A DNA stretch of 64,000 bases, taken from Prauserella marina. Its GTDB lineage: Bacteria > Actinomycetota > Actinomycetes > Mycobacteriales > Pseudonocardiaceae. This document shows positions 12,853 through 47,037 of the stretch, piece after piece. The stretch covers positions 5,557,001-5,621,000 of the forward strand of contig NZ_CP016353.1 in NCBI RefSeq assembly GCF_002240355.1. Direction: 5' to 3'. The position numbers were made by a program, and so were the translations under genes. Position 1 is the stretch's first letter. Every line of letters starts with the position of its first letter. Below the pieces are notes generated by a model. That model worked only from the letters and a program-made list of their open reading frames with translations. It was not told the DNA's origin and did not search any database.

Positions 12853-12935
12853 GAACGCGGATCTCGACCCGCTGAATGCGGATCTCGCGCGCCTGGACGC
12901 GGATCTCGGTGTCCTGGGCGGGGGACTCGCGCGCA
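12853..12935 (-). repeat. 21-bp-period intergenic repeat, copy A (3' of prfA)
   Basis: Three successive 21-bp units, each containing a close variant of GCGGATCTCG (12853-12873, 12874-12894, 12895-12915), are followed by the end module GGGCGGGGGACTCGCGCG (12916-12933). Read in the direction of prfA transcription, the order is stop codon, 24 bases, GCGCGAGTCCCCCGCCC, then units with GACACCGAGATCCGC. Related arrays lie at 29254, 40489 and 46481-47037. The array is non-coding as far as I can see. Confidence 0.85.
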
Positions 12936-12959
12936 CGCCGCACGACGCGCGCGCACGGG

Positions 12960-14033
12960 TCAGGACTGGGCGGCCAAGCGCTCCTCGCGGTCCGCGTCGC
13001 GAAGCGCGTCGAGCACCCCGTCCAGTTCGCCGTCCAGCACCTGGTCGAGGTTGTAGGCCTTGTAGTTGACGCGGTGGTCGGAAATCCGGTTCTCCGGGAA
13101 GTTGTAGGTCCGCACCCTTTCGGACCGGTCCACGGTCCGCACCTGCGACCGGCGCGCGTCGGCCGCCTTCGCCGCGGCCTCCTCCTCGGCGATGGCCTGC
13201 AACCTCGCCTGCAACACCTGAATCGCGCGGGCCCTGTTCTGGATCTGCGACTTCTCGTTCTGGCAGGACACGACGATTCCCGTCGGCACGTGCGTCACTC
13301 GCACCGCCGAGTCGGTGGTGTTGACGCTCTGCCCACCGGGCCCCGACGAACGGAACACGTCGATCCGCAGGTCGTTGGGGTCGATCTCGACCTCGACGTC
13401 CTCCGGTTCGGGGTAGATCAGCACCCCGGCAGCCGACGTGTGGATCCGGCCCTGCGATTCGGTCGCCGGAACCCGCTGCACGCGGTGGACCCCGCCTTCG
13501 AACTTCAGCCGCGCCCACACACCGTCCGGCTCGGCGCTCTTGGTCTTGAACGACACCGTGACGTCCTTGTAGCCGCCGAGGTCGGACTCGTTGGAGTCGA
13601 GTACTTCGGCCTTCCAGTTGTGCCGCTCGGCGTACCGCAGGTACATGCGCAGCAGATCGCCCGCGAACAGCGCCGATTCCTCGCCGCCCTCGCCCGACTT
13701 GATCTCCATGAGCACGTCGGAGCCGTCATAGGGGTCGCGGGGCAGCAACTGCTCGGTCAGTTTCGCCTCCAGCACGGGAATCCTCGCCGCGAGCTCGTCA
13801 GCCTCGATCGCGAAAGCCGGATCCTCCGCGGCGAGTTCGGTCGCCGCGGCGAGATCCGCCCTCGCGGCTTCGAGCTCGTTGAGGGTCTTGACCATCGGCG
13901 ACAACTCGGCATAGCGCTTGCCCAGCTTGCGCGCCCTGCCCTGATCGGCGTGCACGGCGGGGTCGGCGAGCTGCTGTTCCAGCTCCGCGTACTCGTCGAG
14001 CAGACCCTGAAGGGAACTCGATTCCACTGCCAT
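12960..14033 (-). CDS. prfA: Peptide chain release factor 1
   Basis: 357 residues. It has the RF1/RF2 core with the peptidyl-tRNA hydrolysis motif in [18 protein letters not shown] at about residue 225. The recognition segment reads [13 protein letters not shown], the P-A-T of the PxT tripeptide marking RF1 (UAA/UAG) rather than RF2. Start [20 protein letters not shown] at 14033. It lies between rpmE and the MerR/prmC genes, the usual actinobacterial order except for the MerR insertion. Confidence 0.98.
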
Positions 14034-14061
14034 ACCTTTCCTGGTGCCCGCCGGTGAACAA

Positions 14062-14109
14062 GAAAACGGCGCCCGTACCCGCCTGAAAACAGGCAGGTAC
14101 GAGCGCCGT
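14062..14109 (-). terminator. Terminator after rpmE
   Basis: A 20-bp nearly perfect stem (14066-14085 with 14090-14109) and a 4-base loop; on the minus strand it is followed by TTTCT. It lies 8 bp after the rpmE stop and 33 bp before the prfA start, so prfA probably has its own promoter or depends on read-through. Confidence 0.85.
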
Positions 14110-14117
14110 CGATGAAG

Positions 14118-14345
14118 CTACTTGGCGTCGTCCTTCTTGCCGCGCTTGCCGTAACGAGCCTCGAACCGTGCGACCCGGCCACCGGTGTCCAGAATCTTCT
14201 GCTTGCCGGTGTAGAAGGGGTGGCACTTCGAGCAGATTTCGACGTAGATGTTGCCGCTGCTCTTCGTGCTGCGCGTGGTGAAGGTGTTGCCGCAACCACA
14301 GGTCACCTCGGTGACCACGTACTCGGGGTGGATTCCGCTCTTCAT
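14118..14345 (-). CDS. rpmE: 50S ribosomal protein L31 (zinc-binding type)
   Basis: 75 residues starting [20 protein letters not shown]. The two pairs of cysteines (CGC near residue 16-18 and CSKCH near 37-41) form the Zn2+ site of the C+ type L31, as opposed to the zinc-free paralogue used under zinc starvation. The ATG at 14345 gives the standard family N-terminus; upstream in-frame codons belong to the leader. It has its own downstream terminator. Confidence 0.97.
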
Positions 14346-14556
14346 GGTGTCCTCTCTCGGTGGCCGCCGGGTCCTCTGTGAGGTGAACCGGAGCCGGACG
14401 TCAGCGGGCCCATTCTGCCAGATCAGCCGCTGCCCGGAACAACGCACCCCGGCCACCGCCTATTCCTCACCCAGGTCACCAGCCGTGGGCAGGTCATGGT
14501 CGACGAGGTGATGCCGAACACACCACGAAGCCTCGTCCACAGTGCACCCACGACGA

Positions 14557-14607: not shown

Positions 14608-16569
14608 TCAGTCGTCGTCGTTGCCAGGCGCCGTCTTGGACACCTGCATCAGGAACTCGATGTTCGTCTTCGTCTTGCGCAGCCGGTCGATCAGCAGATC
14701 GATGGCCTGCTGCGAATCGAGCGCGTGCAGCACCCTGTGCAGCTTGTGGGTCACCGCGAGCTCGTCAGGCGAAAGCAGCAGCTCTTCCTTACGCGTACCC
14801 GACGGGTTGACGTCGACGGCGGGGAAGACCCTGCGTTCCGCGATCTTGCGGTCGAGCTTGAGCTCGGCGTTACCGGTGCCCTTGAACTCCTCGAAGATGA
14901 CGGTGTCACCGGTGGAACCGGTTTCCACCATCGCCGTCGCGAAGATCGTGAGCGAACCGCCGTCCTCGATGTTGCGAGCCGCGCCGAGGAACCGCTTCGG
15001 CGGGAACAGCGCGGTCGAGTCGACACCACCGGAGAGGATCCGGCCGGAGGCCGGTGCCGCCAGGTTGTAGGCACGGCCGAGCCTGGTGATGGAGTCGAGC
15101 AGCACGACGACGTCGTGTCCCATCTCCACGAGCCGCTTCGCCCGCTCGATCGACAGTTCGGCGACCGAGGTGTGGTCTGACGGCGGGCGGTCGAAGGTCG
15201 AGGCGATGACCTCTCCCTGCACCGACCGCTGCATGTCGGTGACCTCTTCCGGCCGCTCGTCGACGAGCACGACCATGAGATGGCACTCGGGGTTGTTCGT
15301 CGTGATCGCGTTGGCGATGTCCTGCATGATCGTGGTCTTACCCGCCTTCGGCGGCGACACGATCAGCGCGCGCTGTCCCTTGCCGACCGGCATGACGAGG
15401 TCGATGACCCTCGTGGTCAGCTTGTTGGACTGAGTCTCAAGCCGCAGCCGCTCGTTGGGGTACAACGGGGTCAGCTTGTGGAACTCGGGCCGCTTCTTGG
15501 CGACCTCGGCCTCAAGCCCGTTGACCGAGTCGACCCTCACCAGCGGGTTGAACTTCTGCCGCTGCTGCTCGCCTTCCTTCGGCTGCTTGACCACGCCGGT
15601 GATCGCGTCGCCGCGCCGGAGGCCGTGCTTGCGCACGAGCGACAGCGAGACGTAGACGTCGTTGGGACCCGGCAGGTACCCGGAGGTCCGCACGAACGCG
15701 TAGTTGTCGAGCACGTCGAGAATGCCCGCGACGGGAAGCAGGACGTCGTCGTCGCGGATCTCTGTGTCGGTGCCACCGCCGCCGCTGCCTTCGCCCCGGC
15801 CACCACGGCGCCTGCGATCACGGAACCTGCGGCCACGGCGGCCACCGCGCTCGTCGTCGTCCTGGTCGTCTTTGTTGTTGTTCCGCTGGTTGTCGCGCTG
15901 CTGGTTGTCGCGCTGGTTGCGCTGACCGCCCTCGCGCTGACCACCGTTCGGCCTGCGGTCGTCCCCACCGGAACCGCCGCGCTCGGCGGACTCGCCTCGG
16001 TTGTTGTCCTCATCGCGCTGCTGCGCGTTGTCCTGGCTGCCCGCGGGCCTGCTCGAACCACGCCTGCGCCTGTTGGACCGGCCCCCCGTTTCGTCGGACC
16101 GCTCGTCGTCACGCTGCTCGGCTTGCGCTGAACCGTCGGTCTTCACCGGCGACTTCCGTGCTTCACCGTCCTGCGCCGGCTTCGCGGCCTTGTCCTGCTT
16201 CGCGGGGGCCTTGTCGACCTTCGCCCGCTCCGAAGACTTGCCAGGAGCGTCGGCCTTCTCGGCGGCCTTGGCCTCGCCAATGCCTTCGAGTGGCAGCGTC
16301 TCGCTGCTGTTCGACGTGGTCCGCCCCCGCTTCGTCTTGCCTTGGCGCTCCCGGATGGCGGCGATCAGATCGCCCTTGCGCATTCCGGTGGTGTCACCGA
16401 CGCCCAGCTCGGTGGCCAGCGCGCGAAGTTCGGCGATGACCATGCCGGACAGTCCACCCGGACGCCGTTTCGGTGCCGCGCCGGCACCGTTGGATTGCGG
16501 CGCCTGCTCCCCGGAACCCGGCGATGCCTGGGTATTCACGTCGCCGCTTAAAAGATCGGTGTTGCTCAC
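14608..16569 (-). CDS. rho: Transcription termination factor Rho
   Basis: 653 residues from GTG 16569 (VSNTDLLSGDVNTQASPGSG), with GGAAGG six bases upstream. Domain order: a helical Rho N-domain (about 40-85, GMVIAELRALATELGV), then some 170 residues of low-complexity Arg/Gly/Asp/Asn/Gln-rich sequence (DNQQRDNQRNNNKDDQDDDE and similar). After that come the cold-shock RNA-binding domain (LLPVAGILDVLDNYAFVRTS) and the RecA-type ATPase with Walker A VSPPKAGKTTIM and Q/R-loop regions. The hexamer terminates transcription at C-rich sites. The disordered insertion is typical of actinobacteria and can promote phase separation or RNA binding elsewhere. Confidence 0.98.
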   Translation of the reverse strand: MSNTDLLSGDVNTQASPGSGEQAPQSNGAGAAPKRRPGGLSGMVIAELRALATELGVGDTTGMRKGDLIAAIRERQGKTKRGRTTSNSSETLPLEGIGEAKAAEKADAPGKSSERAKVDKAPAKQDKAAKPAQDGEARKSPVKTDGSAQAEQRDDERSDETGGRSNRRRRGSSRPAGSQDNAQQRDEDNNRGESAERGGSGGDDRRPNGGQREGGQRNQRDNQQRDNQRNNNKDDQDDDERGGRRGRRFRDRRRRGGRGEGSGGGGTDTEIRDDDVLLPVAGILDVLDNYAFVRTSGYLPGPNDVYVSLSLVRKHGLRRGDAITGVVKQPKEGEQQRQKFNPLVRVDSVNGLEAEVAKKRPEFHKLTPLYPNERLRLETQSNKLTTRVIDLVMPVGKGQRALIVSPPKAGKTTIMQDIANAITTNNPECHLMVVLVDERPEEVTDMQRSVQGEVIASTFDRPPSDHTSVAELSIERAKRLVEMGHDVVVLLDSITRLGRAYNLAAPASGRILSGGVDSTALFPPKRFLGAARNIEDGGSLTIFATAMVETGSTGDTVIFEEFKGTGNAELKLDRKIAERRVFPAVDVNPSGTRKEELLLSPDELAVTHKLHRVLHALDSQQAIDLLIDRLRKTKTNIEFLMQVSKTAPGNDDD

Positions 16570-23348: not shown

Positions 23349-23474
23349 CAGCCGAGTGTATGTGGCAGCGTGCTCGCGGTTGACAGCGACCAGGTGCCAT
23401 CGACAAGCGGACATTCCGCCCCCGACCTGGCCCGTCAGCGCAGCCGTCACCTGGGCCTTACTCGCAGGGAGCCC

Positions 23475-23595
23475 GACGCGGCGCTCACTCCCACCCGTCG
23501 CCCGGCCACCACCCCTGAAGGAGCCGCTACGCGGCGCTCACGCCCACCCGCCAGCCCGACCACCACCCCTGAAGGAGCCGCTACGCGGCGCTCAC
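23475..23595. repeat. Tandem 54-bp repeat in the argS/DUF3105 divergent region
   Basis: A 36-base stretch beginning CCACCACCCCTGAAGGAGCC occurs identically at 23506-23541 and 23560-23595 (period 54). A degenerate third copy of its end (GACGCGGCGCTCACTCCCACCCG) precedes it at 23475. Each unit contains a small hairpin GCCGC-TAC-GCGGC. The array fills most of the 306-bp gap between divergent argS and the DUF3105 gene; I see nothing else there except the weak promoter space on both sides. Confidence 0.8.
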
Positions 23596-23654
23596 ATCTC
23601 TCTACCTACACTTCAGCTCGGCAGATCGGTACCGACGATTGAGACGCGGGAGCC

Positions 23655-24497
23655 ATGGCGAGCGGCAGCAAGAAAAAAGGCACGCCCAAGAAGAAGAGCG
23701 CCGTCAACGCGGCCCGCAGCTCTGTCGTAGCCAAGAAACAGGTTCCGTGGGGCACGATCGCGGCCGTCGTCGGCATCGTACTGCTGGCGGGAGCGGTCTT
23801 CGGCTACTACTACGTGGCTTCCGGTGACAAGCGAGCGCAGGCCGAGCGCGAGGAATCCGCGGCGGCCTTCGCGCCGACCGACAAGGAGCCCAACCCCTCG
23901 AACAGGATCGAGGGCGTCGTTACCGAGGAGTACTCCGGCGGTGCCCACGTCCTGCCGACCGAGCGCGTCGCCTACGACAAGACTCCCCCGTTCGGCGGAC
24001 CTCACGACGGCTTCTGGGCTGCCTGCAACGGCGTCGTCTACCCCAATCCCGTTCGCACGGAGAACATGGTCCACTCGCTTGAGCACGGCGCGGTGTGGAT
24101 CGCCTACGACCCGGACAGGATCCAGGGCGACGACCTGGACACCTTGAAGGTCAGGGCCGAGGGCAAGCCGTTCACGATGATGTCCCCCTACCCGGGTCTC
24201 GATTCCCCGATCGCACTGCAATCGTGGGGACACCAGCTCAAGCTGGAGAGTGTGGACGACGAACGCATCGACCAGTTCATCGCGGCGCTGCGCAGGAACG
24301 CGAACACCTATCCGGAGATCGGCGCCTCGTGCGACGCGCTCGGCCCGGGCAGGTTCGACCCCGACAACCCGCCCGCCTTCGACCCCGCGCCTCCCGGCCC
24401 CGACGCCAAGCCCATGGACTACAAGGGCTCCGACGGCGCTGCCGACGAGCAGATGGGCGGCGGCCAGCAGGCTCCGACCCCGCCTGCCGGCGGCTGA
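23655..24497 (+). CDS. DUF3105 membrane-anchored protein
   Basis: 280 residues. A basic N-terminus (MASGSKKKGTPKKKSAVN) precedes one membrane helix (GTIAAVVGIVLLAGAVFGYYYV), then an extracytoplasmic DUF3105 domain with NMVHSLEHGAVWIAYDP at about 135-150 and conserved Cys residues in WAACNG and ASCDAL, and a Pro/Gly-rich tail. The conserved His residues and Cys pair suggest a metal or redox role, but the family has no established function. It is followed 3 bp later by a DUF305 gene, so the two form an operon. Confidence 0.85.
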   Translation: MASGSKKKGTPKKKSAVNAARSSVVAKKQVPWGTIAAVVGIVLLAGAVFGYYYVASGDKRAQAEREESAAAFAPTDKEPNPSNRIEGVVTEEYSGGAHVLPTERVAYDKTPPFGGPHDGFWAACNGVVYPNPVRTENMVHSLEHGAVWIAYDPDRIQGDDLDTLKVRAEGKPFTMMSPYPGLDSPIALQSWGHQLKLESVDDERIDQFIAALRRNANTYPEIGASCDALGPGRFDPDNPPAFDPAPPGPDAKPMDYKGSDGAADEQMGGGQQAPTPPAGG

Positions 24498-29204: not shown

Positions 29205-29253
29205 TCTGCCCGCCGGGTCCGACAATCCGGGGTCCGAAGCAGCTCCGGTGACG

Positions 29254-29295
29254 CGAACGCGCAACTCGCCGTCCCGAACGCGGAACTCGGTGGTG
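29254..29295 (-). repeat. 21-bp-period intergenic repeat, copy D (short)
   Basis: Two 21-bp units (29254-29274 and 29275-29295) contain GAACGCGCAACTCG and GAACGCGGAACTCG, matching the units of copy C. The usual end module is replaced by the arm of a strong terminator hairpin. It lies 3' of the lipoprotein gene, with the same polarity as the other copies, and immediately 5' of the cas6e remnant. Confidence 0.7.
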
Positions 29296-29330
29296 TCTCG
29301 CGGCGCTCGACGCGCCGCGAGACACCACCG
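29288..29330 (-). terminator. Strong hairpin terminator after the lipoprotein gene
   Basis: A perfect 19-bp stem (29288-29306 with 29312-29330) and a 5-base loop, 7 bp after the lipoprotein stop. It is one of the strongest hairpins in the window. Confidence 0.85.
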
Positions 29331-31658: not shown

Positions 31659-31664
31659 GCCAGC

Positions 31665-31689: not shown

Positions 31690-31696
31690 AAAACCC

Positions 31697-32602: not shown

Positions 32603-32629
32603 CAGCTCGATCCCCTCACCCGCCGGATT

Positions 32630-32649
32630 TCACTTCACATACAAAGTGA
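32630..32649. promoter_or_regulatory. Inverted repeat between SMP-30 hydrolase and MarR genes
   Basis: TCACTT (32630-32635) and AAGTGA (32644-32649) are separated by 8 bp, a layout suited to a MarR dimer. It lies 28 bp upstream of the hydrolase start. The regulator is inferred from adjacency. Confidence 0.4.
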
Positions 32650-32733
32650 CCATGACCCGACGGTACTGTCAAGATCTGTTCCGACGCGCACGGTCCTCGC
32701 GAAAACCGCCGAGGAAGATGCCAAGATCTCGGC

Positions 32734-33162: not shown

Positions 33163-33200
33163 ACGGATTTCGGCCACCGCGACACGGTTAAGATCGAGTC

Positions 33201-33989
33201 GTGCCTCTCGCGAAAGCCGCCGACGACACCGCCATCAACTACGAACTGCACGGCCGTGGTCAACGCGTGTTGTTGTTGCTCGCGGGACAATCCAACAACC
33301 GGCACTGGTGGGATTGCGTCCTGCCCGACTTCGCGGAGTCCTTTCTGGTCGTCACCATCGATTACAGGGGAACGGGCGACAGCGGGAAACCGGACACGGA
33401 TTCATACAGCACAAGGGGTTTCGCCGAGGACGCCATGGCTGTGCTCGACGCGATCGGCGCTGACCGCTTCGACGTATACGGAACCTCCATGGGCGGAAGG
33501 GTCGCGCAGTGGCTCGCCGCCGACAATCCGGGCAGGGTGAACACACTCGTGCTTGGCTGCACGTCGCCGGGGCAGTCACACGGAGTCGAGCGGAGTCCCG
33601 AGATCACGCGCGCGCTCGGCCAGCGGGACAAGGCGGCCGTCCGCAAAGCACTGCTCGAATTGATGTACTCGCCGGAATGGCTGAAGACCCATCCTGGTCC
33701 CTACAACACGATCGGCGACAGGGCGATGCCGTCGTATGCCCTCAGGCGCCATCGCAAAGCCAGCGCCGCCCACGACTCCTGGGCGGTACTGCCCTCGATC
33801 TCGGCGCCGACACTCGTCGTGCACGGTACCGACGACATCTTCAACCCCACGGCCAACGCGCCATTGCTTGCCGACCGCATCCCCGGTGCGAAACTCGAAC
33901 TGATCGAAGGGGCTCGGCACGCGTATTTCGAGGAATACCGTGCCATCGCGAGTCCGCTCGTGCTCGATTTCCTGCTCGGACAACCGTAG
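33201..33989 (+). CDS. Alpha/beta hydrolase
   Basis: 262 residues, GTG start at 33201. The nucleophile elbow is YGTSMGGRVAQWL (about residue 97), the acid is probably the Asp in VHGTDDIFNP, and the catalytic His is in EGARHAYFEEY. The oxyanion-hole region reads LLLLAGQSNNRHWWDCV. The fold resembles 3-oxoadipate enol-lactonase and related esterases, but the substrate cannot be assigned. It follows the MarR gene closely and ends 13 bp from the convergent XRE gene. Confidence 0.88.
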   Translation: MPLAKAADDTAINYELHGRGQRVLLLLAGQSNNRHWWDCVLPDFAESFLVVTIDYRGTGDSGKPDTDSYSTRGFAEDAMAVLDAIGADRFDVYGTSMGGRVAQWLAADNPGRVNTLVLGCTSPGQSHGVERSPEITRALGQRDKAAVRKALLELMYSPEWLKTHPGPYNTIGDRAMPSYALRRHRKASAAHDSWAVLPSISAPTLVVHGTDDIFNPTANAPLLADRIPGAKLELIEGARHAYFEEYRAIASPLVLDFLLGQP

Positions 33990-34002
33990 CGCCGGACCCG
34001 GT

Positions 34003-34296
34003 CTAGGGATATTCCCTTGTGCCACCGGTGTTTCCGGTAGCACCGGCGCCGTCGTAGGTCTGATGCGTACGGTCGTCCAGCAACGCCGCCGCCCTCACCG
34101 ACAACGCGTCGGCGATACCGAACAACGTACCGAGCGTGATATTCCTGCCGCCTCCTTCCAGGACGACAATCGTGCTGCGGGCAGTGCCCGCCAACGTCGC
34201 GAGCCTTTCCTGGCTCATGTCGCGCGCGTGGCGCAGGGTTCGCACCCTGTCGCCGACGCGGCGAAGCCGCCAACCTTGCTGGTCGCTCACCGTCAC
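34003..34296 (-). CDS. XRE-family small DNA-binding protein
   Basis: 97 residues. The HTH is RVRTLRHARDMSQERLATLA, continuing GTARSTIVVLEGGGRNITL, a Cro/CI-type domain, followed by a short tail without a sensor domain. The start is GTG 34296 or GTG 34290; a TAAACT eight bases upstream could be the -10 of a leaderless transcript. No toxin or target gene is adjacent, and its role is unknown. Confidence 0.8.
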   Translation of the reverse strand: MTVSDQQGWRLRRVGDRVRTLRHARDMSQERLATLAGTARSTIVVLEGGGRNITLGTLFGIADALSVRAAALLDDRTHQTYDGAGATGNTGGTREYP

Positions 34297-34476
34297 GGGA
34301 CGCGAGTTTACCGGAAAACTCGAACTTCGAAACAGTCATTTCACCAAGTGATCGCAAGCTTTCCATCGGTTGGCACACCCCCGACGGCACCGGCATCACG
34401 CGTCACGCATGCCGGGAAGCCCTCGACGCCCGGCAAATGCCCCGTTCGGCCGCCGGTGTCGTACTGCCGCGCCCTG

Positions 34477-34680
34477 ATGAAAGCGCCATGCAAGTGCGCA
34501 CCGGCATTCTGCGTCGAGCGACGGCGACAGGAGGCCGGTACCGATGTCCACGGGCAGCGGAGAAAGGGCCTCACCATCCTGTGGCCGGTCGGCGCGGTCG
34601 TGGTCGTGGCGGCGGTCGTCGTCACGACCACCCTCCTCACCGGGGGAGGTGGGGAGGACCACGCCGCGGCCGACGGCTGA
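34477..34680 (+). CDS. Possible single-helix membrane ORF, perhaps frameshifted
   Basis: In the otherwise empty gap 34297-34689, one frame encodes GQRRKGLTILWPVGAVVVVA followed by AVVVTTTLLTGGGGEDHAAADG and a stop, a plausible one-helix membrane protein. Its only upstream ATG in frame (34477) has no Shine-Dalgarno. A much better start, ATG 34544 nine bases after AGGAGG, is in another frame (MSTGSGER...) and would need a +1 shift to join the helix. This may be a broken small gene, a sequencing error or chance. Nothing else is seen in the gap. Confidence 0.25.
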   Translation: MKAPCKCAPAFCVERRRQEAGTDVHGQRRKGLTILWPVGAVVVVAAVVVTTTLLTGGGGEDHAAADG

Positions 34681-34689
34681 AGCACCAGT

Positions 34690-37488
34690 TCAAGCGCCGA
34701 CGGCGCGCCCGACGGCCAGCGGCGACACGGACGTGATCGCCCTGCCGAGCCCGGGGGTGCGTCCAGCCTCCAGCACGGTGAGCTTCGCCTTCACCTGCTC
34801 GGCGGAGGGATCTCCGAACTCGGTCAGCACGGCGAGCGCTTCCCGCAGGCAAGCTTCCGCCCTGCTCTTCCTGCCGAGCGCGGCCAACGCCTCGCCGAGT
34901 CGCATCAGGACCGTAGCGGCCCGCCACCGGTCGCCGAGCTCGACGTTGATCTCCAGTGCGGTCTCGTAGTCGGCGACCGCTTCGTTCATCCTCGCGCTGT
35001 CGCGATGCAGATCGCCCAGCGTGCACAACGTCATGCGCTGCGCCCCGTCCGAACCGCCGCGCTGCACCTCCAGCGCCTCGTGCAGCAGCCGCGAGGCGTG
35101 CTCGTACTGACCGGACTGCCGGTAAACGTCACCGAGATTGTTCAGCGCGATGCCGATTCCCCGCTCGTCCCCCATGATCCGGAACAGTTCGAGTGCCCGC
35201 GTGTAGCAGTCGAGCGCCTCGGGGAAGCACTTGATGTTGTCGTACACGACGCCGAGGTTGTTGAGATTCCATGCCTGCCCCTTCCGGTCGTCGGCCTTGG
35301 CGTAGTGCGAGACCGCTTCGCCGTGGCAGGCGATGGCGTCGGCGAACCTGCCGATGTCGTCGTAAGCGACACCGAGTCCGTTGAGCAGCACGGCCTGCGC
35401 GGTCGAGTCCGCTGCGCCCTCCGCGGCGACCAGCGCGGTCCGGTAGCAGCGGATCCAATCGTCCCAGTGCTTGCTCAGGTAGAAGTACGAAAGCAGTGCG
35501 GCCGAGATCGCCGAGGCAGGCTCCCGCCTTCCCGCCGTCACCGCCGCGTCGACGGCCGCGACGAGGTTGCTCCGCTCGGCCTCGAACCAGTCCATGGCCT
35601 GCGTTCTCGTGCAGGGAGCCGGTTCCGTCCCCGCGTCTGCCGCCTCCACCGCGAGGCGGGATTGCGGATCGAGCGCCATGCTCATCCGCGTCGCCCGCAG
35701 CGTGTAGTAGTCGAAAAGGCGGCACAATGCCGCGTCCCGCTCGGCCTCCGTGTGTTCCTCGGCGACGAGTTCCGCCGCATAGGCACGCAGCAGATCGTGC
35801 TGCCGGTACCTGCCCCCTTCGACCTCGTCGACGAGGTGAGCGGCGAGGAGAAGACCGAGCAGGTCCCTTGTCTCCGCTTCGGAAATGCCCGCGAGCGCGG
35901 CGAGCGCCAGCACCTCGGTCTCCTTGCCCGGGAACAGCCCGCACAGCCGGAAAAGCAGGGCGGCGTCCTCGTCGAGCCGGTGATAGGACCACGAGAACAC
36001 CGCCCTCACCGAAGCCTGCGGATGCCCTTCGACCTCAAGCAGGTCCAGCCTGCCCTGCTCGCTGTCCAGCTCGGCGGCCACCTCCGCGACCGTGCTGTCC
36101 CTGAGCCGGATCGCCTCGGCGACCAGCCGCAGTGCCAGTGGCAGCCGGGCACATCGCCGGGTGAGCGGCTCGACGTGGTGCGGAGCGCTCGCGAGCCCTT
36201 CGCCCGCGAGTTCGGTCAGCAACTCGTGCGCCGCGTCCTCGGCGAGTTCGCCGACCGGTATCCGGTGCGCCCCGTGCAACGCGGTCAGCCCTGCGAGCGA
36301 ATCCCTGCTCGTCACCAGCACGAAACAAGAAGCGGTACCGGGAAGCAGCGGAAGAATCTGCTCGGCCGAGTGCGCGTTGTCCAGCACCAGCAACATCCGC
36401 TTGCCGTCGACGAGCGTGCGGAACCGGGCCGCCCTTTCCGCGAGGCTCTTCGGGACGGCCTGCCCCGCGACACCGAGCGCCCTGAGGAAACCGGCAAGCA
36501 CCTCTTCCGCGCATTCGGGCGCTCCCTGGCCGTAACCACCGAGATCGACGAACAGCTGCCCCGAGGGAAAGCGGCTTCTCGCGCGATGTGCCCAGTGCAC
36601 GGCGAGCGCGGTCTTGCCCATCCCTCCGGCACCGGCAAGTACACAGATCCGTTGCGCGGAGCCGGTTGCCGCGACGCCGTCGAGTTCGGCGAGTTCGGCC
36701 GTCCTGCCGAAGAAACTAGGCACGTCGTGCGGAAGCTGGGCAGGCACCCTCGCGACCCCCGCCGGCCGACCCCTCAAGATGCCGCGTTCCAGTTCTCGCA
36801 GTTCGGAGCCGGGTTCGAGGCCGACTTCGGCCACCAGCCTCCGTCGCACGTCGCGGTAGACCTCAAGCGCCTCAGCCTGCCGCTGCGACCGGTAGAGGGC
36901 GGTCATCAGCAGCGCGTACAGGCGTTCCCGCAGTGGGTAGTGGCGAACGAGGTCGGTCAGTTCCGTCGCGACGAGTGCGTGCCTTCCGCATTCCAGTTCC
37001 GCCTCGTACAACTGCTCGACCGCCGCGAGTTTGCGCTCGGTGAGCCGCGCGGACTCGTCGACGAGCAGCGGAACGTCCAATCCCCCGTACGGCAGGGACT
37101 GCCACAGCGCGAGCCCTTCCCTCACCAGAGCCGCGCAACCGGCGGGCTCGGTGAGCGCGACGCGGTCGGCCTCGTCGAAAAGGGCCTCCATCCGCGCGGC
37201 GTCCAGCTCCCCCTCCCCGACGTCGAGCAGGTATCCGCCGGATCCGAACCGCAACCGGTCCGGATCACCGAGGACACCGCGCAACCGGTGGACGTGAAGT
37301 TGCAACCGTCCCGCCGCGCGCGGGTCGAGGGAATCCGGCCACAGCGCGTCGGTGAGTACGTCCACACTCACCGGCCGGCTCGCCCTCAGCAGCAAAATCC
37401 CCAACAGCGTGCGTTGCAGCCTGCCCTTCGGGGCGGTCACCGTCCGGCCGTCACGCACCTTGATGGGACCCAGTACCTCGAACTCCAT
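34690..37488 (-). CDS. AfsR/SARP-type regulator: BTAD, NB-ARC and TPR domains
   Basis: 932 residues from ATG 37488 (MEFEVLGPIKVRDGRTVTAP); the upstream in-frame extension lacks homology. Domain order: OmpR-like winged helix (about 1-90), bacterial transcriptional activation domain (about 95-245), STAND/NB-ARC ATPase with Walker A LAGAGGMGKTALAVHW (about 300) and GMLLVLDNAHSAEQIL-like Walker B, then tetratricopeptide repeats (about 680-900; repeated ALxxYTRALELFR and NNLGDVYRQSGQYEHA units). Such proteins activate antibiotic clusters or serve as global regulators. No biosynthetic cluster is adjacent. The shorter intergenic distance to the GntR-TetR gene is 105 bp. Confidence 0.93.
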   Translation of the reverse strand: MEFEVLGPIKVRDGRTVTAPKGRLQRTLLGILLLRASRPVSVDVLTDALWPDSLDPRAAGRLQLHVHRLRGVLGDPDRLRFGSGGYLLDVGEGELDAARMEALFDEADRVALTEPAGCAALVREGLALWQSLPYGGLDVPLLVDESARLTERKLAAVEQLYEAELECGRHALVATELTDLVRHYPLRERLYALLMTALYRSQRQAEALEVYRDVRRRLVAEVGLEPGSELRELERGILRGRPAGVARVPAQLPHDVPSFFGRTAELAELDGVAATGSAQRICVLAGAGGMGKTALAVHWAHRARSRFPSGQLFVDLGGYGQGAPECAEEVLAGFLRALGVAGQAVPKSLAERAARFRTLVDGKRMLLVLDNAHSAEQILPLLPGTASCFVLVTSRDSLAGLTALHGAHRIPVGELAEDAAHELLTELAGEGLASAPHHVEPLTRRCARLPLALRLVAEAIRLRDSTVAEVAAELDSEQGRLDLLEVEGHPQASVRAVFSWSYHRLDEDAALLFRLCGLFPGKETEVLALAALAGISEAETRDLLGLLLAAHLVDEVEGGRYRQHDLLRAYAAELVAEEHTEAERDAALCRLFDYYTLRATRMSMALDPQSRLAVEAADAGTEPAPCTRTQAMDWFEAERSNLVAAVDAAVTAGRREPASAISAALLSYFYLSKHWDDWIRCYRTALVAAEGAADSTAQAVLLNGLGVAYDDIGRFADAIACHGEAVSHYAKADDRKGQAWNLNNLGVVYDNIKCFPEALDCYTRALELFRIMGDERGIGIALNNLGDVYRQSGQYEHASRLLHEALEVQRGGSDGAQRMTLCTLGDLHRDSARMNEAVADYETALEINVELGDRWRAATVLMRLGEALAALGRKSRAEACLREALAVLTEFGDPSAEQVKAKLTVLEAGRTPGLGRAITSVSPLAVGRAVGA

Positions 37489-37593
37489 CGATACCCCCGT
37501 CTGCCGCGATTGAGAAGTATGACGCACGCGGTCGCGATGCGGAGCCGTTCGATCGCAACAGAGGCAGGTCCTCACCCAGTGATCAGCACGCCC

Positions 37594-38550
37594 TTACCGA
37601 GCGAAGTTCTGCTTCGCGTGCCGCTCGACCAGCAGCGCGAAACCGTCGAGGTGTCGCGCGAGCGCGTACTCGAACACCCCGGCCACGTCGGCGACGACCT
37701 CACCGGAAACGGCGGCGAGAGCGGGAAACCGCCCGCCCTCGAACAACACGTCCGTCCTGGATTCCCGCTCAAGCCACCAGCGGTCGAACGACTTCCCGCT
37801 TTCCTGATGCGCCTCGGATTCCGCCGATTCGACGAGCGCGAGGCTGGTCACGAGCGCGGTGAGGCTGAGCACCTCGCGCAGTCTCGTCTCGTCACTGAGG
37901 CCGAGACCTTCGATGGCCCGCAGTGCCCATTCCGTGTGCGCCATGGCGTTGGGCATCAACAGCGGCCTGGTCAGCGAGATGACCCTCGGCAACCAGCGAT
38001 GCCGCGTGCACAGTTCCCACTGCTCGCGTGCGCAGAGTTCGAGTTTGGCGCGCCAGCCCTCGGGGCCGGGTTCGGGCATCGGCCGCGACGCGAATGTCAC
38101 GTCGGCCATCAGCTCGACCAGCTCGTCCTTGCCAGCGACATGCCGGTACACCGACATCGCGCCGATGCCGAGCTCGGCGGCGAGCCTTCGCATGGACAGC
38201 GCCTCAAGCCCTTCGGAGTCGGCGATGCGCATCGCCGCGTGCACGATGTGCGCGCGGCCTACCCCCGCTCTGCCCGGCAACGGTTCCGGCGGCCTGCGCG
38301 GCATGACCCGCGCTGCCGAGCGCGCTCCGGCAATGGGACTCACCACGGTTCCCGATCCCACTCTCGCTTCGACGAGCCCCTGGTCGCGCAACACGGCCAT
38401 CGCCTTCGTCGCGGTGGCGACGGCCACGCCCCACTGCCGCGCGGTGTGCCGGATGGGCGGGAGCCGGTCACCGGCCACCAGCTCACCGGCCTCGATGCGG
38501 GCCTGGATGTCGTCGACGATCCGGCGATACGGCGGAGCACTCGTTGCCAT
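37594..38550 (-). CDS. GntR-TetR fusion transcriptional regulator
   Basis: 318 residues from ATG 38550. The N-terminal GntR winged helix (YRRIVDDIQARIEAGELVAG, with DRLPPIRHTARQWGVAVATA) is joined at about residue 90 to a complete TetR-type HTH (IVHAAMRIADSEGLEALSMR, LAAELGIGAMSVYRHVAGKD) with a TetR C-terminal ligand domain. Thus two DNA-binding domains lie in one chain. It is divergent from a GNAT acetyltransferase gene, with the palindromic TTGTACTAGTCCAA region in between, and likely controls it and/or itself. Confidence 0.9.
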   Translation of the reverse strand: MATSAPPYRRIVDDIQARIEAGELVAGDRLPPIRHTARQWGVAVATATKAMAVLRDQGLVEARVGSGTVVSPIAGARSAARVMPRRPPEPLPGRAGVGRAHIVHAAMRIADSEGLEALSMRRLAAELGIGAMSVYRHVAGKDELVELMADVTFASRPMPEPGPEGWRAKLELCAREQWELCTRHRWLPRVISLTRPLLMPNAMAHTEWALRAIEGLGLSDETRLREVLSLTALVTSLALVESAESEAHQESGKSFDRWWLERESRTDVLFEGGRFPALAAVSGEVVADVAGVFEYALARHLDGFALLVERHAKQNFAR

Positions 38551-38653
38551 GACGCCCGATTGTACTAGTCCAAATCCCACCCTGGCTAGGACATTCAATA
38601 ACAATAATCGGGGGAAATGCGCGAAATAAAGCATCTGAAGCAAGGCAGTGGGA

Positions 38654-38683
38654 ACGTTGTACGCATGAACTCGCGAACAACGT
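38654..38683. promoter_or_regulatory. Inverted repeat spanning the GNAT start codon
   Basis: ACGTTGT (38654-38660) and ACAACGT (38677-38683) flank the ATG at 38665. A regulator bound here would block translation initiation or promoter clearance. The divergent GntR-TetR protein is the obvious candidate, by adjacency only. Confidence 0.4.
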
Positions 38684-39285
38684 ACGAAAGCGTTCGGGTC
38701 GCAGCCGGCACCGACCGGGACGAAACGCTGGCCGTACTCCGCTCTGCCTTCGCAGCCGACCCCTTCGTGGGCTGGTTGTTTCCCGACCCCGCGACGAGGG
38801 ACGACCTCCAGACGCGGTTCTACCTTCCGCTGCTGAGCCACCCCCGCGCCGAAACGACCCTGCTGGGGACGGGCGAGGCCGCCGCGATCTGGCTGTCGCT
38901 CGCGCCGGGCCAGTCCCCCTTCGGGGACATCGAAGACGCGGGAGACACAGGGGACACCGAAGCCGCCTTCGGTGACAACGCGGCACGGCTCGCCATCGCC
39001 GGCGAGCACCTTGCCGAAAGGCACCCGACCGGATCCGCGCATCACTACCTCGCCGTCATGGGAGTCGTCCCCGGCGCGCAGGGAACCGGTCTCGGCTCGG
39101 TGTTGCTGCGGCACGGCCTCGCCCGTGCCGACGCCGAGGGCGTCGGTTCCTACCTCGAAGCGAGCACGGCAGGCAGCAGGCAGCTGTACCTGCGGCACGG
39201 CTTCGCCGACCTCGGCGAGCCCGTTCACCTGCCTGACGGCCCGACGCTGTGGCCCATGTGGCGCGAACCCGGCACCACTCGCTGA
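38665..39285 (+). CDS. GNAT-family N-acetyltransferase
   Basis: 206 residues from ATG 38665 (MNSRTTYESVRVAAGTDRDE). The acetyl-CoA-binding motif A is LAVMGVVPGAQGTGLGSVLL at about residue 133, and motif B follows (YLEASTAGSRQLYLRHGFA). The substrate is unknown. It is followed 34 bp later by a C45-type N-terminal nucleophile hydrolase gene in the same direction, so the two probably form an operon under the divergent GntR-TetR regulator. Confidence 0.88.
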   Translation: MNSRTTYESVRVAAGTDRDETLAVLRSAFAADPFVGWLFPDPATRDDLQTRFYLPLLSHPRAETTLLGTGEAAAIWLSLAPGQSPFGDIEDAGDTGDTEAAFGDNAARLAIAGEHLAERHPTGSAHHYLAVMGVVPGAQGTGLGSVLLRHGLARADAEGVGSYLEASTAGSRQLYLRHGFADLGEPVHLPDGPTLWPMWREPGTTR

Positions 39286-39319
39286 ACCCATCCGGGAAAC
39301 CATTAGGAAAGGAAAGAAC

Positions 39320-40486
39320 ATGGGGATCGAAACCGAGGTCGTCGCGGGGAGCGCCGACGACTTCATGCTGGTGCGGCACCTGAAGGTCACCGGAAACCAG
39401 ACCGAGATCGGCAGGGCACTCGCCGAGGAGGCTTACGAGCGTGGCGGCTGGCGGCCGTCGAGGGCGGACCCGGTCAAGAACCGCGCGCGGCTTGCCTGGT
39501 TCGAGCGGTACTGGCCACAGCACAGGGCACGGATGGAAGGTGCGGCGGCGGCACTCGGCACGACCGTGGAAGCGGCACAGGTCCAGCTGGACGACGTCGC
39601 GACGGTTCCAGGCGGTTCCGCGTGCACGGCGACCTGGTGCGCGCCGTCCGCGACGCGGGAGGGACACGGCTTCCTCGGCCGCAACTACGACTTCTTCACG
39701 GTCGGCTGGTCGCAGCTCTTCGCGATGATCTCCGGGGAACCGGCAGCGGAGGACGGCAGCCTGCCTGCCGCCTCACGGCCCTACGTCATCACGAGCGTCC
39801 CCGACGACGCGCCGGCGACGACGCTCATCACGATGAACGAACTCGACGGCTGCATGGAGGGCGTCAACGAGCACGGCCTGGCGGTGGCGTTGCTCATCGC
39901 CGACATGGAGACAGCTGGCGAGCCATCCGACGCGGGACCGCAGGTCGGCATCGGGTCGGCCCAGCTTCCCCGGTTCGTTCTGGACACGTGCGAGAACGTC
40001 GAGCAGGCACAGCGGGCGCTGCTCGCCGCCAAGCAGTACGACCTCGGTACCCCGCTGCACTACCTGATCGCCGACCGGCACGGCGACGCCTTCGTGTGGG
40101 AGACGGGACCGGACGGCAGCGAGCACATCGTTCCGGCCGACGGGGAGGCGCTGTGCGTGACGAACCATCTGCTGCACCGGCGGCACGATCCGGAGAACCC
40201 TCCCGCCGACAACGACGAGACGGTGCGCACGTACGAGCGGCTGGAGACCATCAGGGACCGCACCAAGTCGGGTCCGATGTCGGCAGGCGCGGTGCGCGAC
40301 GCGCTCGACGAGGTCGCGTTCGACTCGCGCAACGCGGGCGCGTACCCGGTGCGCACGCTGTGGCGCACGGTGTTCGACCTGGACGAGCGCAGCATGGCGA
40401 CGCACTTTTACCTCGGTGACGAGCGGGACGGCACCAACCGGTACAGCGAGGAAGTCGTGTTCCGGCTGGGGCGGCACACCTCCTGA
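39320..40486 (+). CDS. C45-family peptidase / acyl-CoA:6-APA acyltransferase-like Ntn hydrolase
   Basis: 388 residues, ATG 39320 with GGAAAGGAAAG upstream. The expected nucleophile Cys is at about residue 102 in VPGGSACTATWC, where autocleavage before Cys would expose it. The following FLGRNYDFF, MNELDGCMEGVNEHGLAVAL and ITSVP segments match the C45 (isopenicillin-N acyltransferase-like) family. Such enzymes act on amide bonds of small acylated metabolites. Coupling with a GNAT enzyme suggests acylation/deacylation of an unknown amine. A 21-bp-repeat copy begins 2 bp after the stop. Confidence 0.88.
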   Translation: MGIETEVVAGSADDFMLVRHLKVTGNQTEIGRALAEEAYERGGWRPSRADPVKNRARLAWFERYWPQHRARMEGAAAALGTTVEAAQVQLDDVATVPGGSACTATWCAPSATREGHGFLGRNYDFFTVGWSQLFAMISGEPAAEDGSLPAASRPYVITSVPDDAPATTLITMNELDGCMEGVNEHGLAVALLIADMETAGEPSDAGPQVGIGSAQLPRFVLDTCENVEQAQRALLAAKQYDLGTPLHYLIADRHGDAFVWETGPDGSEHIVPADGEALCVTNHLLHRRHDPENPPADNDETVRTYERLETIRDRTKSGPMSAGAVRDALDEVAFDSRNAGAYPVRTLWRTVFDLDERSMATHFYLGDERDGTNRYSEEVVFRLGRHTS

Positions 40487-40488
40487 CC

Positions 40489-40546
40489 CGCGAGTCCCCC
40501 GCCCAGGACGCCGAGATCCGCACTCGGGACGACGAGATCCGCGTTC
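40489..40546 (+). repeat. 21-bp-period intergenic repeat, copy B
   Basis: The end module CGCGAGTCCCCCGCCC (40489-40504) starts two bases after the C45 gene stop codon. It is followed by two units (40505-40525, 40526-40546) containing GACGCCGAGATCCGC and GACGACGAGATCCGC. The polarity relative to the upstream gene is the same as in copies A and C. A separate strong terminator hairpin follows. Confidence 0.85.
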
Positions 40547-40557
40547 GCGGCACGGGC

Positions 40558-44945: not shown

Positions 44946-45019
44946 ACCAGCAAGGCTAGTCCGTAGACTCTCCCCTTCCGGTGTGGAAATACCGGCATAG
45001 TGAAGCAGGGGTGACCGTG

Positions 45020-46408
45020 ATGCCGATGATGCCCGTGACGGACTCGATGTTCCTGCTGATCGAAACCCGAGAACATCCCATGCACGTCGGTGGGCTGGAA
45101 CTCTTCACGCCCCCTGACGGCGCGGGACCCGACTACCTGAGCGAACTGCGGCAGAAGATGCTCGACAGCGCGAGCATGCGGTCCCTGTTCCGGCGGCGCC
45201 CCGCTCGGCCCGTCAACACCATGGGCTACCTGGCCTGGGCGACAGATGCCGAACTCGACCTCGACTACCACTTCCGGCATTCCGCGCTGCCGCGGCCGGG
45301 GCGCGTGCGGGAACTGCTCGAACTGACCTCACGCTGGCACAGCACCCTGCTCGACCGGCACCGGCCGTTGTGGGAGATCCACCTCATCGAGGGTCTCAAC
45401 GACGGCAGGTTCGCCATGTACACCAAGATCCACCATGCCCTGCTCGACGGGGTTTCGGCGTTGCGCCAACTCCAGAGCACGCTCAGCGACAGCCCGGATC
45501 CCGGTCTCGCCGACCCCGCGCCGTGGGCGAGCACGAAGTCTTCGGGGTCTTCGGGGTCTCCGGCGGCTTCGGGCAATGGCTCCGGGCCGGGGTCCTTGTT
45601 GCGGCTGACCAGGAATTCCGCGAGGCAGTTGGCCGGTGTTCCGCAGGCAGCGGCAAGGGTCGCCAACGAAGCGTTCAGGGAGCACGCGCTGACACTGCCG
45701 CTACAGGCGCCGAAGACCATGCTGAACGTGCCGATCGGTGGCGCCCGCCGGTTCGCGGCGCAGTCGTGGCCGGTGGAGCGAGTGCGGCAGGTCGCGACCA
45801 ACGCGGGTGTCTCCCGCAACGACGTCGTGCTCGCGATGTGCGCCGGTGCCCTTCGCGACTACCTCATCGAGCAGCGAGCCCTTCCCGACGCCCCGCTTGT
45901 CGCCATGGTTCCCATGTCACTGCGCGGCAAGAGGGACACGGAGGAGGCGCAAGGAAACCAGATCGGCGCCCTGCTGTGCAACCTGGGAACCGATCAGGCC
46001 GATCCGGCGCAGCGGCTCGCGGTCATCGCAAGGTCGATGAGTGAGGGCAAGCGGATCTTCAAGCAGCTCACCCCGCTTCAGGTACTGCTGCTGTCGGCTG
46101 TCAACATCGCGCCCTTGGGGGCGTCGCCCGTGCCGGGATTCGTCAACAACACCCGGCCACCGTTCAACATCGTCATCTCGAACGTGCCGGGGCCGCGCAA
46201 ACAGATGTACTGGAACGGCGCGAGCCTCGACGGCATTTATCCCGCTTCGGTGCTGCTCGACGGTCAGGCGCTCAACATCACGCTGACCAACAACGGCGAC
46301 AACCTCGACTTCGGTATCACCGGTTGCAGGCGAAGCGTGCCGCACCTACAGCGACTGTTGGTGCACCTGGACACAGCGCTGGCCGAACTGGAGTACGCGA
46401 CCAAGTAG
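45020..46408 (+). CDS. Wax-ester synthase/diacylglycerol acyltransferase (WS/DGAT)
   Basis: 462 residues, starting MPMMPVTDSMFLLIETREHP; AGGGG is eight bases upstream of this ATG. The catalytic HHxxxDG motif is IHHALLDGVSALRQL (about residue 135). The PLWEIHLIEGL segment and the C-terminal NIVISNVPGPRKQMYWNGA and NDVVLAMCAGALRDYL blocks complete the family pattern. It esterifies acyl-CoA to long-chain alcohols or diacylglycerol for storage lipid at the membrane or lipid body. A Gly/Ser-rich linker (about 165-190) separates the two domains. It is convergent with the amidase gene across a 738-bp repeat-filled gap. Confidence 0.93.
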   Translation: MPMMPVTDSMFLLIETREHPMHVGGLELFTPPDGAGPDYLSELRQKMLDSASMRSLFRRRPARPVNTMGYLAWATDAELDLDYHFRHSALPRPGRVRELLELTSRWHSTLLDRHRPLWEIHLIEGLNDGRFAMYTKIHHALLDGVSALRQLQSTLSDSPDPGLADPAPWASTKSSGSSGSPAASGNGSGPGSLLRLTRNSARQLAGVPQAAARVANEAFREHALTLPLQAPKTMLNVPIGGARRFAAQSWPVERVRQVATNAGVSRNDVVLAMCAGALRDYLIEQRALPDAPLVAMVPMSLRGKRDTEEAQGNQIGALLCNLGTDQADPAQRLAVIARSMSEGKRIFKQLTPLQVLLLSAVNIAPLGASPVPGFVNNTRPPFNIVISNVPGPRKQMYWNGASLDGIYPASVLLDGQALNITLTNNGDNLDFGITGCRRSVPHLQRLLVHLDTALAELEYATK

Positions 46409-46420
46409 CGCGACCCCGGT

Positions 46421-46456
46421 GCCCGAGGTGCCCGAGGTGCCCGAGGTGCCCGAGGT
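46421..46456. repeat. Four 9-bp tandem repeats
   Basis: GCCCGAGGT is repeated four times without change (46421-46456), followed by GCCCGT twice. It lies just after the WS/DGAT stop and before repeat copy C. It is a simple-sequence tract likely to vary in copy number. Confidence 0.85.
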
Positions 46457-46480
46457 GCCCGTGCCCGTGCCGCGTGTCGT

Positions 46481-47037
46481 GCGCGAGTCCCCCGCCCAGG
46501 ACGCCGAGATCCGCACCCAGGACATCGACATCCGCGCTCGGAACGGCGACATCCGCAGTCAGGACGCCGAGACGCGCAGCCAGGAGCGCGAGATCCGCGC
46601 TCCGGTCACCGAAATCCGCAGTCAGGTTGCCGAGATCCGCGCTCCGGTCGCGTCACCGAAATCCGCGGTCTCGACAGCGAGATGCGCAATCCCAGACCAC
46701 GAGAGTCCGCGCCGGTTCGGTCACGACGAACGGACCGGACGGAACGCCACGGACATGCTGACCTTTCGGATACCGACGCAGTTCCGGACGGCGGCAAGTC
46801 ACACCACCGCCCGGGCGCAGATCTCACCGCCCTGAATGCAGAACTCGGCAACCGGAACGCAGAACTCGCCGACCTGGACGCAGATCTCGGCGCCCCGAAC
46901 GCCGGTCTCACCATCCGGACGCAGATCTCACCGTTCCGAACGCGGATCTCGACGCCCTGAATGCAGAACTCGGCGACCCGGACGCAGAACTCGGCGACCT
47001 GGGTGCAGAACTCGGCGACCTGGGCGGGGGACTCGCG
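46481..47037. repeat. 21-bp-period repeat, composite copy C with inverted end modules
   Basis: The left end carries GCGCGAGTCCCCCGCCC (46481-46497) followed by seven exact 21-bp units to 46644. The right end carries ten units (46813-47021; nine of 21 and one of 20 bp), containing variants of GAACGCAGAACTCGGCGAC, closed by the inverted module GGGCGGGGGACTCGCG (47022-47037). A spacer of about 170 bp separates the arms. Each half has the module facing the stop codon of its neighbour, WS/DGAT on the left and amidase on the right. Frames through it give repetitive heptads and are not genes. Confidence 0.85.

Follow-up and report, generated by a model that had tools for sequence, protein, structure and literature searches.

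Dispersed polar arrays of 21-bp units at gene edges in Prauserella marina and other Pseudonocardiaceae

Repeats with a 21-bp period form hundreds of intergenic arrays in the soil-dwelling family Pseudonocardiaceae, and these arrays are spread genome-wide and polar. An array opens with a distinct first unit at a gene edge, and neighbouring arrays on opposite strands face inward. We tentatively regard them as dispersed gene-end boundary elements, most likely repeated Rho-loading sites that would end transcription; a roadblock bound to DNA and a targeted selfish minisatellite compete with this reading. No description of the repeat family was found in the titles and abstract openings of one open-access library, including by search with sequence strings (subscription papers lie outside this coverage).

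Arrays in the window and across the family

The window, the whole stretch of 64,000 nt of the P. marina genome that was analyzed, carries arrays at four places, all of them where the first-pass annotation had located them. A 4-unit array (12851..12934, minus strand; first unit 12914-12934) lies behind the stop codon of a peptide chain release factor gene with PCRF and RF-1 domains (12960..14033, minus strand). The second array (29253..29294, minus strand) comprises two units and is devoid of the C-rich first unit. A strong hairpin (29290..29329, score 31) separates this array from the stop codon at 29338; it lies 0 nt away on the module side and reaches a few bases into the array. The gene with an AAT domain (39320..40486, plus strand) ends at the third array (40486..40548, plus strand), of which the first of the three units (40486-40506) starts on the final base of the TGA stop codon. 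The last is an inward-facing pair flanked by two convergent genes, one with WS_DGAT domains on the left (45011..46408, plus strand) and the other with an amidase domain on the right (47147..48538, minus strand). The left arm contains 10 units (46479..46693, plus strand; first unit 46479-46499) and the right arm 11 units (46811..47040, minus strand; first unit 47020-47040), and the 117-bp spacer (46694..46810) shared no similarity with the other spacers compared.

The period of 21 bp was recovered independently by TRF at three places, 12848-12908, 46495-46640, and 46816-47020. Unit matches in the window amounted to 43 against 11.4 expected, and none of 100 shuffles gave as many. The "end module" that had been set apart from the units holds as a shared exact core, GCGAGTCCCCCGCCC, found four times (12916-12930 and 47022-47036 on the minus strand, 40490-40504 and 46483-46497 on the plus strand). 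It is not a separate piece but corresponds to the unit that opens the array, CGCGAGTCCCCCGCCCAG, which is distinct from the middle units yet in 21-bp register with them. When up to three mismatches were allowed, the 13 matches to the core were at chance level (mean 13.4), and thus the weight rests on the exact copies only. The distances from stop codon to module were about 2, 27, 72, and 108 bp, in agreement with the range of 2 to about 110 bp given previously. A search of the window against Rfam returned tRNA and L31 leader matches only, none over an array, and no plasmid copies of the 576-bp pair were found.

In 1.2 Mb sampled from the 6.99-Mb genome, we detected 74 arrays of 21-bp period, of which 72 were classed as intergenic and two, scored as in-gene, were omitted. 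Weak gene calls on top of arrays were removed before gaps were counted (seven in one count, eight in another). Lone motif matches within genes were discarded, since coding sequence of such composition produces them. Across the whole genome, the 17-base module had 160 matches with at most two mismatches, as opposed to 11 for the reversed control. Other Pseudonocardiaceae share the array plan but differ in the middle units: the middle-unit consensus, GGACGCCGAGATCCGCGCTCA in P. marina, varies between genomes, while the distinct first unit is kept. The distribution across the family is patchy.

Unit anatomy and array growth

The spacing between units was exactly 21 in 288 of 301 cases. As the spacing equals the unit length in these cases, the arrays do not match a CRISPR layout with unique spacers. 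The CGAG core was kept even when it was excluded from selection (C in 153, G in 161, A in 161, and G in 146 of 161 slots), and the mismatch between adjacent units ranged from 0% to 63% depending on the column. The constraint on the arrays is thus column-specific and lies at the CGAG core. The first unit is C-rich. The units of P. marina as a whole (C 0.375, G 0.333; C/G 1.12) contradict the earlier description of the repeats as having few G.

The 13 remaining spacings bear on whether the arrays encode a heptad peptide, as a coding repeat or a C-terminal extension. The period is divisible by three, a stop-free frame exists in 50 of the 52 arrays with at least four units, and some arrays were initially scored as weak genes by the gene caller. 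Nevertheless, all 13 spacings other than 21 break the frame, and no reading frame is favoured by the distance from stop codon to array (19/24/14, p 0.27; 13/22/12, p 0.14). The arrays are non-coding, and we assign a coding role an extremely low probability.

REPs are hairpin-forming palindromes associated with a Y1 transposase (RAYT). The arrays resemble REP/BIME elements in being dispersed, intergenic, and often in inverted pairs behind genes, but single arrays form no hairpin. No palindromic unit was recognized by consensus or folding, and the logos of the first and last units are not inverted copies of one another. Y1_Tnp (PF01797) was found in none of the nine array-bearing genomes tested and in two of seven others, so that the suggested link to a RAYT-type gene is ruled out as far as Y1_Tnp is concerned.

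In all four genomes compared, adjacent units were more similar to each other than permuted ones (0/500 permutations each), indicating that the arrays lengthen by tandem duplication. This comparison overturned the absence of local homogenization hinted at by comparing all pairs of units. In orthologous gaps of the sister species G070 and G102, arrays occupied the same place in 2/2 cases with unequal unit numbers, and two window sites that could be aligned to more distant relatives carried no array there (judged by eye). The arrays may have been inserted behind genes in the past, but both orthologous pairs have stayed in place between the sister species.

The likeness of neighbouring units, the unequal unit numbers, the patchy occurrence, and the two sites without an array in more distant relatives would also suit a minisatellite, selfish or neutral, that prefers a certain place and orientation of insertion at gene edges and then grows by slippage. 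Such a repeat would be tolerated there because it spares promoters and coding sequence. We consider this origin a serious rival, albeit less likely than the boundary reading. Against it, the arrays are placed and oriented in a clearly non-random manner, the constraint is column-specific, and gaps of sister species are occupied at the identical place. Neither a Y1 transposase, a common spacer, nor (by eye only) a target duplication in the flanks of pairs was noticed.

Two known repeats are comparable to the arrays in this respect. BrickBuilt (PMC4596501), a minisatellite-MITE of Porphyromonas gingivalis with 19 copies and an imperfect 23-nt tandem repeat, is likewise dispersed and intergenic, combines conserved and variable columns, and has two ends that differ in sequence. 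The arrays differ from BrickBuilt in numbering hundreds, facing inward, and hugging stop codons. The ends of BrickBuilt are a long leader and a long tail that carry terminal inverted repeats, whereas the special end of an array is a first unit of unit length, and terminal inverted repeats of this type were absent from the arrays. STAR elements of Staphylococcus, according to the part of PMC3532100 available, are 14-bp repeats of unknown function with intervening sequence of at least 40 bp; their loci are stable within species, variable in copy number, and differently placed between species. They share with the arrays the nature of interspersed intergenic direct repeats, but the latter consist of abutting 21-bp units of unrelated sequence and are polar, while that text reports no polarity rule for STAR.

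Orientation and position relative to genes

The placement of the arrays is supported as non-random. Adjacent arrays on opposite strands faced inward in 20/20 cases in one count, and outward-facing neighbours were absent from P. marina (0/18), the genomes G070 (0/3) and G001 (0/3), and a further set (0/41). The inward rule holds in divergent and co-directional gaps as well. In 62 of the 72 P. marina arrays, the distance to the adjacent gene edge was shorter at the first unit than at the opposite end of the array.

The first-pass annotation had proposed the order of stop codon, module, and units leading away. Every array in the window follows this order, but only 43 of the 72 intergenic arrays in the 1.2-Mb sample do so; in the other 29, the first unit lies beside a gene start, ruling out a strict stop-codon rule for P. 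marina. In co-directional gaps of this genome, 16 arrays were stop-side and 14 start-side. None of the start-side arrays examined had a tRNA nearer than 600 bp, and tRNAs are therefore rejected as their hidden cause; missed protein genes may account for them. One stop-side array lies after tRNA-Glu and its terminator.

The stop-side arrays are concentrated close to the stop codon: the distance was below 15 nt in 16 of 43 in P. marina and between -3 and 14 nt in 14/14 in G070, and the first unit was at most 12 nt from the stop codon in 36 of 55 stop-side arrays at named Prauserella/Qaidamihabitans loci. Convergent gaps hold 27/72 of the arrays in P. marina and 10/18 in G070, albeit they make up 15% and 14% of intergenic bases, respectively. 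The arrays look more like markers of gene-end boundaries than like random satellite DNA, against which the first-pass annotation had already argued. Separately, TGA was the stop codon ahead of 29 of 33 close arrays in four genomes, compared with roughly three quarters of all genes.

Candidate roles at transcription boundaries

The favoured, though uncertain, inference is that the arrays terminate transcription, with Rho as the likely executor. The 21-nt tandem array, opening with its C-rich first unit at a gene edge, typically directly behind the stop codon, and leading away, would halt the transcription leaving its gene and spare the neighbour, above all in convergent gaps. Rho would load on the repeated RNA with C in excess of G, exposed by the ribosome at the stop codon. 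The arrays gain and lose whole units at fixed sites. The window contains the gene for transcription termination factor Rho (14608..16443, minus strand; not part of the repeat), and thus the host has Rho.

We scored rut-like character on the sense strand over 78 nt (C in excess of G, C every 11-13 nt). The median C/G of sense, antisense, and control 3' ends was 1.33/0.97/1.08 in P. marina, 1.69/0.62/0.97 in G070, 1.58/0.96/1.10 in G217, and 1.40/1.09/1.15 in G001, the sense value being the highest in 4/4 genomes. The role in the 3' untranslated region suggested at first is reasonable and in line with these medians, though the share of scores above 1.5 in P. marina was that of the control (13/72 arrays against 27/169 controls). 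The arrays are compatible with Rho loading. Rut sites (PMC6407284) similarly have C in excess of G on the sense strand and are adjacent to the stop codon on the side of the mRNA, but they have no fixed sequence or period, whereas the arrays have the invariant CGAG core and the 21-nt period, and the P. marina units are not G-poor. Rho and a plain rut site do not need the core G and A, which are invariant (161/161 each). The start-side arrays, the 16:14 split in co-directional gaps, and the presence of an array in only 21 of 108 P. marina convergent gaps of at least 20 bp (length classes summed) also speak against a Rho-dependent boundary. So does the strong hairpin that precedes, outside the array, 7 of the 27 P. 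marina arrays starting at least 15 nt past the stop codon; it could already terminate transcription.

Single arrays lack an intrinsic hairpin: they were neither more nor less structured than shuffles (z averaging 0.17 over 37 arrays in P. marina and -0.14 over 17 in G070), and none qualified as an intrinsic terminator with a stable hairpin and a T run. Inward-facing pairs were much more stably folded than their shuffles (z from -4.0 to -10.7 for eight in P. marina and from -6.6 to -19.1 for three in G070), which would fit read-through RNA of a pair forming a large hairpin that undergoes cleavage or brings about termination. We hold this to be very improbable, since most arrays are unpaired or act alone, and the two arms of a pair resemble each other no more than arms taken from different pairs (6.45 against 6.51, sd 0.15; 159/500 shuffles as low). 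Selected complementarity of the arms is ruled out, and no similarity among the spacers and no common core inside the pairs were found.

Alternatively, the boundary could reside in DNA. A stretch of 21 bp corresponds to two helical turns, and a putative protein bound to the CGAG cores on one helix face, nucleating on the first unit, would form a polar roadblock or insulator. We rate this as a serious rival, albeit less likely than a Rho-dependent boundary. The conservation of CGAG even when it was excluded from selection, the range of column mismatches, the exact spacing, the inward rule in divergent and co-directional gaps, and the persistence of the first unit while the middle-unit consensus changes by genome are in favour of it, but the period would be kept by tandem duplication alone, and neither the sense-strand C excess nor the clustering at stop codons is predicted.

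TTF-I acts on the Sal-box terminator arrays behind mammalian rRNA genes. Like the arrays, these are short tandem sites placed behind a gene in a polar manner, and the likeness as a transcription boundary is proposed here; they serve one eukaryotic gene family with a known binder, whereas the arrays occur at hundreds of bacterial gene edges with a putative one. By this analogy, it is conceivable, but unlikely, that the arrays are to bacteria what terminator arrays are to eukaryotes, in that a dedicated factor would read the phased CGAG units, nucleate on the first unit, and set a one-way boundary across Pseudonocardiaceae. The genome-wide change of middle units per lineage, with the first unit and the inward rule persisting, would then arise because the factor and the unit sequence co-evolve.

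For many dispersed intergenic repeats of bacteria no function is known, and they are not generally known to obey strong positional rules. The rule for the arrays is strict, with no outward-facing neighbours on opposite strands and the first unit at a gene edge, often a few bases from the stop codon, and it outlasts the change of unit sequence between genera, which makes a function testable. Should they prove to end transcription, the arrays could serve as ready-made one-way insulators in high-G+C hosts and would be relevant to the question of how high-G+C genomes finish transcripts without strong hairpins.

Arrays in the window

Four arrays of tandem 21-bp units had been proposed in the first-pass annotation, and their positions (12853-12935, 29254-29295, 40489-40546, and 46481-47037) were confirmed in the window, along with four exact copies of the core of an end module. 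The module had been regarded as a piece apart from the units, and this view was not borne out: the module is itself the array's first unit and lies in the 21-bp register with the remainder. The C-rich first unit carries CGCGAGTCCCCCGCCCAG, and the consensus of the other (middle) units in the Prauserella marina genome is GGACGCCGAGATCCGCGCTCA.

On the basis of Pfam domains, the array at 12853-12935 lies 3' of a release-factor gene, with a rho gene close by at 14608-16443; an L31-Actinobacteria ribosomal protein leader was found between the two genes at 14362-14397. The array at 29254-29295 comprises two units and lies 3' of a gene without Pfam match that adjoins a CRISPR-associated gene. The CRISPR-associated protein (PF08798) at 28650-29204 adjoins this array, and no CRISPR-like array turned up when 29300-39500 was searched for direct repeats. 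Pfam domains placed the array at 40489-40546 3' of an AAT-domain gene; at 46481-47037, two arrays face each other, flanked by a WS/DGAT gene on one side and an amidase gene on the other. A 9-bp tandem repeat, GGTGCCCGA, runs without mismatch for 4.9 copies (46418-46461), past the stop codon at 46408 and ahead of the first unit at 46479. Separately, the divergent gap at 23450-23655 contains a 54-bp tandem repeat (2.4 copies; 23468-23595) including GGAGCCGCTACGCGGCGCTCACG, and the matching gaps in three Pseudonocardiaceae genomes (G001, G002, and G003) bear similar repeats in other copy numbers.

Placement and polarity

The module pattern matched 160 times in the 6.99-Mb P. marina genome at up to two mismatches, and the reversed control 11 times. 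Across 1.2 Mb sampled as three blocks of 400 kb (17% of the genome), we detected 74 arrays with at least two units, from which we infer about 430 arrays per genome. Neighboring units were spaced by exactly 21 in 288 of 301 cases, and every one of the remaining 13 spacings (16, 19, 20, 22, and 26) shifted the frame; no reading-frame link between arrays and the upstream gene was found. Leaving out two in-gene arrays, 72 arrays were found in convergent (27), co-directional (30), and divergent (15) gaps, and a second detector likewise yielded 72 with the same split. Convergent and divergent gaps comprise 15 and 35% of the intergenic bases, respectively.

The first unit was beside a stop codon (stop-side) in 43 of the 72 arrays and beside a gene start (start-side) in 29, while approximately 40% stop-side was expected from the base shares (p 0.001); the gene calls are codon-usage based, made for this analysis and not curated, so that start-side cases could hide unseen genes. 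Co-directional gaps were split into 16 stop-side versus 14 start-side arrays, and the stop-side excess therefore stems from convergent gaps. In G070, another Pseudonocardiaceae genome, 14 of 18 arrays were stop-side (expected 44%, p 0.007), all 14 being at -3 to 14 nt from the stop. Among the array loci from named Prauserella and Qaidamihabitans genomes, which are not a random sample because the search pattern demanded a first-type unit, 55 of 70 classed arrays were stop-side, and 36 of the 55 lay within 12 nt of the stop; the other 16 of the 86 arrays lay at the edge of a locus and were left unclassed.

All of the 20 neighboring array pairs within 1 kb in P. marina (18 of 18 with the second detector) were on opposite strands with first units outermost, with a called gene between the arrays in three cases by either detector. 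This inward rule was seen in convergent, co-directional, and divergent gaps alike. Neighboring arrays at 43 named loci were inward in 29 cases, same-strand in 12, and outward in none. Three of three pairs were inward in G070; G001, which may overlap with the named loci, had two inward and one same-strand, and the family genome G217 had no neighboring arrays. In 62 of the 72 P. marina arrays (61 of 72 with the second detector), the distance from the first unit to its gene edge was shorter than that from the far end to the opposite edge.

Distribution and evolution of the arrays

Period 21 ranked first among the intergenic tandem repeats detected by TRF in the four genomes sampled, namely P. marina (48), G070 (15), G217 (8), and G001 (6), of which the middle-unit consensuses are GAGATCCGC, GAGTCCTGC, GAGATGCCC, and GAGTCGCGC, respectively. 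A CGCGAGTCCCCC-like first unit is common to P. marina, G070 (ten invariant columns, n=18), and the named loci. In the small samples of seven arrays each, the first unit of G217 was likewise distinct (CGTGTCGACC-like) and that of G001 was mixed. Among 200 family genomes, a three-unit pattern, which was modelled on P. marina and would miss arrays with other unit types, matched 399, 331, 286, 224, 195, 182, 139, and 120 times in G000, G003, G002, G001, G102, G070, G067, and G021 (reversed controls: 0, 14, 2, 1, 0, 0, 0, and 0). Other genomes gave mostly zero or few matches, many resembling coding sequence. Exact matches among named genomes were found in Prauserella endophytica, P. cavernicola, P. 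shujinwangii, and Qaidamihabitans albus.

Neighboring middle units differed less than permuted ones in P. marina (5.77 versus 6.35), G070 (3.27 versus 5.17), G217 (4.80 versus 7.80), and G001 (5.38 versus 7.20), and none of 500 permutations in each genome was as alike as the real neighbors. Thus, the arrays grow via tandem duplication. A targeted selfish minisatellite is a rather unlikely explanation of the arrays.

Mismatches between neighboring units were column-specific, ranging from 0% at the core up to 63% elsewhere (chi2 575). With slots picked blind to the core, its C, G, A, and G were found in 153, 161, 161, and 146 of 161 units, respectively, albeit this masking offsets only in part the bias of weight-matrix detection toward conserved units. 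An invariant core (CGAG) together with a period of two turns suggests a sequence-specific DNA binder, but tandem duplication would preserve the period too, and we regard a DNA-bound roadblock as rather unlikely, on a par with the selfish minisatellite.

We set two convergent gaps of G070 against their orthologs in G102 (DNA about 93% identical over 3.9 kb). Both retain the inward pair, the near-stop placement, and a first-type unit in every arm (one G070 arm with a single change in the C run), while three of the four arms differ in unit number and the central spacer has changed. At the two window gaps that aligned with more distant relatives, no array was seen by eye in the parts inspected, and these gaps contain additional genes in some relatives. 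In G002, the gap orthologous to 46408-47147 (L172:8799-9035) bears two other, palindromic hairpin repeats, one by each gene end, of the AAGGCCACCTT ... GCGTTCAACGC ... AAGGTGGCCTT type, another dispersed 3'-end family. A hairpin-like motif around TGCCGCATTGGGGA occurs twice in a small gap of G067 (L163:17931-18042).

RNA structure and a possible transcription boundary

Stable RNA structure was absent from the single arrays examined (37 of P. marina and 17 of G070), and they are therefore not intrinsic terminators. No strong hairpin was found in the 50 nt either side of the arrays <15 nt from the stop (0 of 16 in P. marina and 0 of 14 in G070), a weak contrast to the approximately 10% in the controls (28 of 269 and 9 of 88). 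Of the P. marina arrays starting later, 7 of 27 were preceded by a strong hairpin 0-20 nt away.

We applied, as interpreted for this analysis, the published rut criterion of PMC6407284 (78 nt, C>G, and C every 11-13 nt). By this measure, the median for the sense strand exceeded both that for the antisense strand and that for control 3' ends in four of four genomes; the sense-strand excess was clear in G070 and weak in P. marina, in which the share above 1.5 was not over the control. Altogether, the position, polarity, and strand bias of the arrays point to a transcription boundary acting in one direction, with Rho as the simplest means, and we tentatively take a Rho-type boundary as a possible explanation of the arrays and the likeliest of the three considered.
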